Source: Chthoniobacter sp.
GTDB lineage: Bacteria > Verrucomicrobiota > Verrucomicrobiia > Chthoniobacterales > Chthoniobacteraceae
NCBI GenBank assembly: GCA_028293645.1
Contig: JAQGOK010000078.1
Location: forward strand, 1 to 32,210
DNA: 32,210 bases
Direction: 5' to 3'
A program made the position numbers and the translations under genes. The notes beneath the pieces are model-generated. The model ran no database searches. It saw only the letters and a list, made by a program, of their open reading frames with translations, and had not been told where the DNA came from. Shown here piece by piece: positions 24,312 through 31,479 of the stretch. Each line of letters opens with the position of its first letter. Positions within the stretch are counted from its first letter, which is position 1.

Positions 24312-24896
24312 TTACCGGGCGAGCCGATCGTCTCCAGTCCACATCGTGCGGTCTGGGCCGGCGGAGCGGATTTCCATGTCGGTGCGGGAGAGTTGGTGGA
24401 AAAAGTAGGGTGTGCCCCAACGGTCGGTAAGTTCGCCGCTGCCATTCAGCGCGGAGCCGGGGGGGACGCCGAGCTTGAGCTGCCTGGGGTTCTGGCCGAG
24501 CAAGGCGCTCGTGATCTCGGCATTGGTGCCGACGGGGTTTTCTCCAAGGGCGGAACGAAAATCCCGGAAGGTAATTCGGACTTCATCGAGATCTGCGGCG
24601 ACTTCTTCAGTGACCGGAGGCGGGGCTGGTGGGGGACGCAAAACTGCCGGGGCGGGCAAAGGCAGAGGAGTGCCAGGCGGTTGAAAAGCCGGAGAGGTCG
24701 GCAAGGAGTGCGGGGCTGACTTCACTGGCGGCGAAGTGGCGCGATGGTTGGTCTGCGCAGTTGCGGATGCCGGCTCTTCCGGAAAAGCGGGAGGGGGAGG
24801 CACGGCTTCCGAGCGGCGGCCGTCCCAAGTTATCCAGGTCGCGATTGCAATGATGAGCCCGCCGCCGAGCAATAGAGTTATCCCAGGACGACGCAC
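24312..24896 (-). CDS. Membrane-anchored Pro-rich protein with GspG-like (type II pseudopilin-like) C-terminal domain
   Basis: GTG start; single N-terminal TM (ITLLLGGGLIIAIATWITW); Pro-rich stalk; C-terminal LTDRWGTPYFFHQLSRTDMEIRSAGPDRTMWTGDD resembles the GspG Ca-binding C-terminus (D.WG.PY...S.G.D...GT.DD). No GFTLIE prepilin motif. Confidence 0.68.
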   Translation of the reverse strand: MRRPGITLLLGGGLIIAIATWITWDGRRSEAVPPPPAFPEEPASATAQTNHRATSPPVKSAPHSLPTSPAFQPPGTPLPLPAPAVLRPPPAPPPVTEEVAADLDEVRITFRDFRSALGENPVGTNAEITSALLGQNPRQLKLGVPPGSALNGSGELTDRWGTPYFFHQLSRTDMEIRSAGPDRTMWTGDDRLAR

Positions 24897-24899
24897 ACT

Positions 24900-29400: not shown

Positions 29401-31479
29401 ACCTACTGACACATGGTCCGTCCCGCTCGCCTCAACGTGCCGCACTTCGACGTAGTAGCGTTTACCGGCTTCCAACCAAAGCAGCGGCGACTTGCCGGCA
29501 CTGGGGTGGGTCCACGCGCGATAGCCTGTTGCAGCCGTAGTCGCAGCGCGCTTCAGGAGGTTCACTACCTCTTCGTCATCGGAGATCCAGAGTTCGGCCT
29601 GGTCATCTGCGGTGAGCCAGAACTGATAGGCACCGCTCACAGGAGCGGTGATGAAGCCGCGCAGCCTTGAGCCAAAAGTGTCGAACTCGCTTTGCGCTAC
29701 TTCGAGGCTGCTGACTACACCACGGGTGGCTGGCTGCGTGTCGATCGGTAAGTCGGCAACGGAGTTGAAGGTGCCATTCCAAACCTCACGGGTGATGCCT
29801 CCGCCGGTCTCCACTACCGTAAGTGTCAGGATGGCGGAGCCTGAGCCGTGCGGATTCGTGGCAGTTATTGGGATCTGCCAAATGCCCGCCTGTGAGGGCG
29901 TTCCGGTAATCTGGCCGGAAGCCGGGTTGATGGTCCAGGCAGGGGGACCGTTTGGAAGATTGGCCGCTCCGTAGCTGCTGGGGAGTCCACTTGCCGCGAT
30001 CTGGTAAGTGTAGGGCCCGCTGCCTCTGAGCAGGGTGATCTCGGTGGGGCTGGTTATCTGCGGAGGAGTGTTGGCGAAGAGCCGAGATTGTGGGATGACC
30101 TGCTTAACCTGGTTCTGGCTTTGCCAGGAAAGGACAGCCTGCGCGTTGTTACCGGTAGATTCGAAATGCTCGATGTAGATTGAGTAGCGCACCCCGCCGA
30201 CGAGCGAGATCGTCCCGCCATACTCGGTTGACACGACGCTGTAGTTCGCGCGCGGCCAGTTATCCACCAGCAGCTCTCCATCAACCCAAATGCGGCCGCC
30301 TTTGTTGGTCCGGAGAAAGAAGGTGTAGATCTGCGAGTATTGCGGCAGGACTTCGCCGGACCAGCGGCTGGCGAAGTAAGTGGGATTGACTCCACTGCCG
30401 GGCCAGGGGGCCACGGCGTAATCAAAGTTCACCGTCGAGTCCACGCGGGAGAGCTTCATCGCTGTCCAATCCGGGGGATTGGTGTCCGAAAGAGTGGTGC
30501 TCGTCTCGTTGTAATACTGTGCGACAAGCCCACCAACGTTTGCGGGATTGATGGCGGTCACATCGCCGATCAGAACGGCGGCCAGTGGAGTTCCTTGGAC
30601 TGTGTAAGCACCCGAGGAGCTGATGGTGAGCAAGACCGTTTCCGGAGACTCCAGCCTGTCATCGGAAAGCGGGGTAATCACGATTGCGGTGCTATTGTCA
30701 GCGAGCCCCAGTGTCACCGATCCGGACAAGGCTGCGAAGTCTGAGCCAGGAGTGGCGGTGCCGGCTACAGCGTAAGTAATCGTGATGGGGCCGAGCCCGC
30801 CGCTGCGGACGACTGTGAACGTTCCGGTATCTGGCCCAACTTCCGAAGCGTCGGGATCGATGGCCTGAATGCTGACGCGGTTCGGTGCGCTCAACGCATT
30901 GGTGATGCGCGTGAGGTCGTCCTCTTCGGAAAGACCTGCGCTGTGGTTGCTATTGGGATTGGAACGAACCGCGAGTTCTTCCCAATCGCTGACGCCGTCA
31001 CTATCGGAATCCAGATCCTGCACAAGGATCCGGTAGTATTTCCCATTAGTCGCGGGAACCGGGTAAGTGCGGGTGATTGCCTCGCCGGTGCCGGGAATGA
31101 TGGTATTCGGCGTTTCGGGCTGCCAATTCGGATTTACCAGCGAACCAGTGCTTTGGACCTGGTAACCTTTGCCGGAGACGGTGCTCCAGGTGATATGCAC
31201 GCCGGGCCCTGCGGCTCCGCCTGTGGTCATTGAAGAGATCGCGATTCTTGACGCCGCCAGAAATGGATCGGTGCCCGCAGCGCTTTCTTCAGCATTGGTT
31301 TTGCCATCACCGTCGGGGTCCGTGCCCTGCACCAAAGCGGCCGCTGAGTACTTGAGCGCCCAAATGTCACCGAGTCCGTCCGCGTTCAAGTCGATCGCGG
31401 CCGTGGCGGTCGCGGAGAGCGTCGCGAGCGTGAGCAAAGGAAGCCAGGAAGCGAGCAGCGACGCGCGGGGTTTGTTCAT
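26422..31479 (-). CDS. Giant secreted multidomain DUF1800 protein (TSP3-like, Calx-beta, two PA14, CHRD-like, interrupted DUF1800)
   Basis: Signal peptide [38 protein letters not shown] / [19 protein letters not shown] / [14 protein letters not shown]; Calx-beta [18 protein letters not shown]; PA14 [12 protein letters not shown]...[10 protein letters not shown]; CHRD-like [19 protein letters not shown]; DUF1800 [17 protein letters not shown]...[23 protein letters not shown]...[19 protein letters not shown]. Confidence 0.9.
   Translation of the reverse strand: [1685 protein letters not shown]
27040..27657 (-). repeat. Three tandem ~60-70-aa beta-rich protein repeats inserted within the DUF1800 domain
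   Basis: R1 [32 protein letters not shown]...[17 protein letters not shown]; R2 [30 protein letters not shown]...[15 protein letters not shown]; R3 [31 protein letters not shown]...[17 protein letters not shown]. Confidence 0.85.

Follow-up and report, generated by a model that had tools for sequence, protein, structure and literature searches.

The window analysed here, a stretch of 32,210 nucleotides from Chthoniobacter sp., carries a cassette of three genes on its minus strand between positions 24312 and 31479 (Table 1). The first gene encodes a DUF1800 protein, the next a DUF1501 protein and the last a small membrane-tethered protein. The listed DUF1501 ORF (24900-26552) starts inside the DUF1800 gene, and its true start is likely the ATG at 26351, just 5' of the twin-arginine motif TRRDFM. 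This start leaves a gap of 70 bp to the DUF1800 gene, and the GTG start of the third gene lies 3 bp past the DUF1501 stop, which agrees with the three same-strand genes and gaps of about 70 and 3 bp described in the first-pass annotation. Promoter and terminator scans returned site numbers no higher than in shuffled sequence. Directly downstream, a convergent gene (22021-24105, plus strand) encodes an FAD-dependent oxidoreductase (PF12831) with a Golvesin C-terminal domain (PF25275). The window also contains genes of the exopolysaccharide-cluster type (647-15683), including a Wzc/ParA-like ATPase, four glycosyltransferases on both strands and a GNAT (FemAB-like) acetyltransferase. These genes are located about 9 kb from the cassette and do not recur beside it at other loci.

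Table 1. Positions in the window of the three cassette genes and of the features predicted within their products
Feature	Position	Strand	Basis
Gene 1, DUF1800 protein, 1685 aa	26422..31479	-	ORF list; Pfam
TSP3-like repeat, residues 54-73	31261..31320	-	PF18884 2.5e-5, 24.5 bits, just under cut-off of 25
PA14 domain, residues 344-464	30088..30450	-	PF07691 6.9e-30, two stretches; PDB relatives 6qe7 and 6qdi
Second PA14/GLEYA-type stretch, residues 605-680	29440-29667	-	PF07691; GLEYA PF10528 6.6e-7
CHRD domain, residues 734-847, directly before DUF1800	28939..29280	-	PF07452 6.9e-9
DUF1800 domain, residues 878-1685, with an internal insertion in this lineage	26425..28848	-	PF08811 1.4e-69
Gene 2, DUF1501 protein, about 483 aa from likely start ATG at 26351	24900..26351	-	PF07394 3.2e-25; start from Tat motif and homologues
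Twin-arginine motif TRRDFM of DUF1501	26307..26324	-	Sequence
Gene 3, membrane-tethered GspG-head protein, 194 aa, GTG start	24312..24896	-	ORF list; family alignment; AlphaFold2 model
N-terminal hydrophobic helix, residues 5-26, without prepilin motif	24819..24884	-	AlphaFold2 helix
Pro/Ala/Ser/Thr-rich linker, residues 27-94	24615..24818	-	Low pLDDT, no secondary structure; composition in relatives
GspG-like globular head, residues 95-194	24315..24614	-	pLDDT about 97; PDB fold matches
Predicted calcium-loop motif GPDRTMWTGDD, residues 180-190	24327..24359	-	Alignment with E. coli GspG 3G20, PGPDGVPNTEDD

The first gene product begins with a Sec-type signal peptide, read from the sequence, and its DUF1800 domain scores 235.7 bits against a Pfam gathering score of 26.1. 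Together with the Pfam matches to PA14, CHRD and GLEYA, this is the Sec-type multidomain protein that had been annotated at the outset, and domains of exported or surface type in the trio are supported. Of the domains named as adhesive-type at the outset, PA14 and CHRD have Pfam matches, whereas Calx-beta reaches 16.7 bits against a Pfam cut-off of 27. The best PDB sequence match of the protein is the PA14-containing anti-sigma factor RsgI3. Among 25 cassette DUF1800 proteins in a domain survey, CHRD is found in 21, PA14 in 12, GLEYA in 12 and a TSP3 family match at E<=1e-3 in 13, and these counts point to a CHRD-DUF1800 core accompanied by variable adhesive-type modules. CHRD is located just N-terminal of DUF1800 in the proteins inspected singly, and a short form of 702 aa (locus L102) is composed of CHRD-DUF1800 only. 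The DUF1800 domain of a compact homologue was modelled with AlphaFold2 (pLDDT 91.2, pTM 0.92), and a fold search of this model against the PDB gave no meaningful match.

The product of the second gene matches PF07394 with 89.6 bits against a gathering score of 27. It has the features of a Tat substrate, namely the twin-arginine motif followed by a hydrophobic stretch, and the pattern [ST]RRxF[LIMV] is present in nearly all cassette DUF1501 proteins, in line with its initial description as a Tat-signal DUF1501 protein. The NCBIfam model TIGR01409 scores below its cut-off in the window protein. An alignment of homologues identified the invariant residues D62, D324-x-H326 and D400-H401, the order of which is reminiscent, at a suggestive level only, of sulfatase/alkaline-phosphatase metal ligands. 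We take the Pfam clan of DUF1501 to be the sulfatase/alkaline-phosphatase superfamily. A deep DUF1501 profile compared with a sulfatase profile using hhalign gave P 2.4e-4 and a probability of 43% (controls P 0.22-0.72), a shallow comparison was not significant (P 0.13), and DUF1501 has no match among PDB sequences. A remote relationship of DUF1501 to this superfamily is weakly supported by these comparisons.

The third protein searched alone has no match in Pfam, NCBIfam or PDB sequences, T2SSG included; its likeness to GspG came only from the family alignment and the structure. T2SSG (PF08334) matches at E<=10 in 11 of 25 relatives, with a best value of 1.3e-4. AlphaFold2 modelling with the family alignment folds the C-terminal 100 residues with a pLDDT of about 97, and the top 12 Foldseek matches against the PDB are all GspG/PulG/EpsG major pseudopilins. 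The best of these is 3g20 (probability 1.00, E 2.7e-3), and the E-values are probably modest because the query included the tether. The protein had been put forward as a small anchored protein whose C-terminus should adopt a GspG-like fold, and both the N-terminal hydrophobic helix and the predicted structure of the head support this. In E. coli GspG the calcium side-chain ligands are D117, T122 and D125 (PMC3396595). The loop GPDRTMWTGDD of the third protein aligns with PGPDGVPNTEDD of E. coli GspG, and the GxD...DD motif of this loop is present in 81 of 81 family sequences, all of which have T, N or S at the position equivalent to T122 (GxD...[TNS]xDD). The head is predicted to bind calcium.

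The head fold and the calcium-loop motif are common to the third protein and to the GspG/PulG/EpsG pseudopilins, but the third protein has a Pro-rich linker and lacks the prepilin peptide, the FTLxE motif and a helix continuous with the head, and its gene sits with DUF1501 rather than with gsp genes. The prepilin motif (G/A-FTLxE) occurs in none of the family members with a readable N-terminus (48 of 81), and an N-terminal assembly helix running into the head is, like the motif, absent from the window protein and from the family alignment of 25 relatives. By its sequence the third protein is not a pseudopilin, as a membrane segment and a Pro-rich linker replace the prepilin N-terminus, and, lacking the processing motif and the polymerisation helix, it would not be expected to form filaments. 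Elsewhere in the Chthoniobacter sp. genome, three genes encode T2SSG-domain proteins that do have a prepilin motif, FTL(V/L/I)E. No T2SS or other secretion genes recur next to the cassette in the flanks of 80 loci, and with the motif and the helix also absent, the first-pass suggestion of an assembly linked to pseudopilins or secretion, drawn from the third partner, is not supported as it stands. A wider family of non-prepilin GspG heads exists in Verrucomicrobiota, to which the short tethered proteins described below belong.

A scan of the GTDB collection identified 296 relatives of the third gene, of which the best 80 loci were retrieved, all from Verrucomicrobiota. Among these best 80, DUF1501 is directly upstream of the third gene in 73 of the 75 loci with enough upstream sequence, and DUF1800 is directly upstream of DUF1501 in all 69 testable loci. 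Kept in 73 of 75 testable loci, the arrangement is far beyond chance expectation. As the 80 loci are the strongest matches, they may be subject to a selection effect; 146 genomes drawn evenly from the phylum gave the same picture, with strong third-gene matches beside DUF1501 in eight of eight cases and weak matches in none. The weak matches inspected are true prepilins or shorter tethered forms, none of which adjoins DUF1501. The third gene is thus co-conserved with both DUF1501 and DUF1800, as the reading of the trio as a unit had supposed. A cultured relative, Chthoniobacter flavus, also carries the cassette (L037). Of the two exceptions, L109 has no DUF1501 upstream of the third gene, and in L034 (identical with locus G014) inserted genes separate the third gene from a DUF1501 gene located about 5.5 kb upstream. 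The insert in L034 (3220-8745) reads as an ECF-type sigma factor, a FecR/laminin-G-type protein and a PQQ-dehydrogenase-like protein.

Duplicate cassettes also keep the trio, with four copies in one genome (G010) and two in each of two others (G053 and G092). No other flanking family is present in more than 14 of the 80 loci, and with flanks this poorly conserved the linkage is a property of the trio itself. None of the cassette loci contained a fusion of two cassette proteins. The distances of the third gene and DUF1501 are correlated (Pearson 0.66), which is not counted as evidence because shared ancestry alone would produce a correlation. Window-type DUF1501 genes, defined by a score of at least 450 bits, number 35 in 57 relatives; the third gene is adjacent to 23 of these, 5.5 kb away from one, absent at 10 and off the contig end at one, which leaves 10 of 34 testable genes without it nearby (four of these loci were inspected). 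A quick DUF1501 tree, with some long branches, places about six changes of third-gene presence, and the rows without the gene cluster. Because some DUF1800-DUF1501 pairs are found without it, the third gene is an optional partner, although a widespread one.

The DUF1501-DUF1800 pair has been linked to chitin synthase operons in proteobacteria (PMC5122149), and DUF1501 modules have been discussed in PVC bacteria (PMC4452313). The proteobacterial pair resembles the cassette in its families, adjacency, co-orientation and DUF1501 Tat motif, but it has no GspG-like partner. The cassette differs further in a DUF1800 protein that carries CHRD and often PA14/GLEYA/TSP3, and in having no recurring flank gene such as chitin synthase. 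No description of the trio or of the third partner was found in the open-access literature searched; the pair is already known. The label "uncharacterised" given in the first-pass annotation remains apt for the function, but the pair itself had been described before.

The three genes probably encode a single uncharacterised machine of the cell envelope. The reading preferred here, at a probability of roughly 0.38, is that the third protein would be a calcium-binding adaptor, tethered in the inner membrane, that serves an exported DUF1501-DUF1800 pair acting on envelope or surface glycans. The DUF1800 protein would be exported by Sec to the periplasm or the cell surface, with its variable PA14/GLEYA/TSP3 modules N-terminal to the CHRD-DUF1800 core. 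The DUF1501 protein would be exported folded via Tat and probably belongs to the sulfatase/alkaline-phosphatase superfamily, either as a metal-dependent enzyme or as a catalytically altered relative, with the weak support given above, and the two may work together on an envelope or extracellular glycan. The N-terminal helix of the third protein would keep it in the inner membrane and the Pro-rich linker would hold the GspG-like head, with its putative calcium site, in the periplasm. Its most likely role would be that of a tether or adaptor for docking, positioning or calcium-gating the pair at the membrane, and the three proteins would associate physically.

This adaptor role is favoured by the adjacency of the trio, the duplicated units, the unconserved flanks, the head fold, the calcium loop in 81 of 81 sequences, the missing prepilin motif, the DUF1501 Tat motif and the DUF1501-sulfatase P value. 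It is weakened by the lack of fusions, the 10 of 34 window-type DUF1501 genes without the third gene, the sulfatase probability of only 43%, the lack of a DUF1501 match among PDB sequences and the uninformative DUF1800 fold search. A more ambitious version, which is somewhat unlikely, proposes an envelope machine specific to Verrucomicrobiota, with a pseudopilin head that has been detached from the filament, placed on a Pro-rich membrane tether and reused as a calcium-gated adaptor delivering or holding a Tat-exported enzyme and its Sec-exported giant partner. DUF1501 and DUF1800 are large, widespread families, and a third partner so closely linked to them, with its recognisable fold and predicted calcium site, provides a concrete handle. 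It suggests the periplasmic face of the inner membrane as the site of the pair's work and calcium as a candidate cofactor, and it is a simple bait for pull-downs. If true, the adaptor would be an example of how pseudopilin heads can evolve away from the filament. TonB-type periplasm-spanning proteins also have an N-terminal anchor, a Pro-rich linker and a C-terminal head; the likeness would be one of layout only, as the head of the third protein is unrelated and no energising partner is seen.

The main rival, which is unlikely, holds that the third protein is a dedicated T2SS docking piece, the GspG-like head of which imitates the pseudopilus or caps it and passes on the DUF1800 or DUF1501 protein to be exported to the surface by the general T2SS. 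The GspG fold and calcium loop would suit this role, as would the three prepilin-type GspG-domain proteins of the Chthoniobacter sp. genome; in another verrucomicrobial isolate, PulG-like pseudopilins are expanded (67 copies) and linked to polysaccharide use (PMC13274419). However, the protein has no prepilin motif or assembly helix, T2SS genes are not recurrent near the cassette, and DUF1800-DUF1501 pairs occur without the third gene.

It is distinctly unlikely that the cassette is a surface adhesin system, with a PA14/GLEYA/CHRD-bearing DUF1800 protein as the adhesin, DUF1501 maturing it and the third protein holding it at the envelope. PA14, GLEYA, Calx-beta and Ig-type modules do occur in many DUF1800 proteins and RsgI3 is the best PDB sequence match, but these modules are variable, with PA14 in only 12 of 25 proteins, the constant core is CHRD-DUF1800, and the short form from L102 has no more than this core. 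Equally doubtful is a role of DUF1501 and DUF1800 as putative paired enzymes for building or modifying a polysaccharide that is exported, such as a chitin-like or capsular glycan, with the third protein as a calcium-dependent stabiliser. This role is favoured by the published link to chitin synthase operons (PMC5122149), the remote sulfatase-superfamily signal of DUF1501 and the glycosyltransferase and Wzc-like genes elsewhere in the window; against it, the flanks of the 80 loci hold no conserved glycan genes. That the third gene is one more member of an expanded pseudopilin-like repertoire, hitchhiking behind DUF1501 with no functional link, would fit the other tethered GspG-like proteins of the genome but is highly improbable and already disfavoured by the adjacency counts, as the strong subfamily is nearly always beside DUF1501 and other members are not, and the flanks turn over while the trio stays.

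The Chthoniobacter sp. genome also encodes a second DUF1800-DUF1501 pair without the third gene (L002, contig C102), with a DUF1501 from a very different clade. Several contigs (e.g. C57, C196, C89, C64, C1 and C150) carry PSD1 (PF07587)-DUF1501 pairs, arranged in the order seen for DUF1800-DUF1501. These planctomycete-type pairs likewise have DUF1501 directly after the large partner gene, but the partner family has no detectable DUF1800 similarity and the DUF1501 belongs to another subfamily than that of the cassette (about 535 versus 90 bits with the Pfam model). At the sensitivity of the hhalign comparison (P 0.12), a remote relationship between DUF1800 and PSD1 was unsupported. Large proteins of different kinds seem to have DUF1501 as a common partner. 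Two loci of the same genome (L004 and L005, contigs C127 and C224), as well as L121 and L133, encode short tethered GspG-like proteins that lack the Pro-rich linker and are not beside DUF1501.
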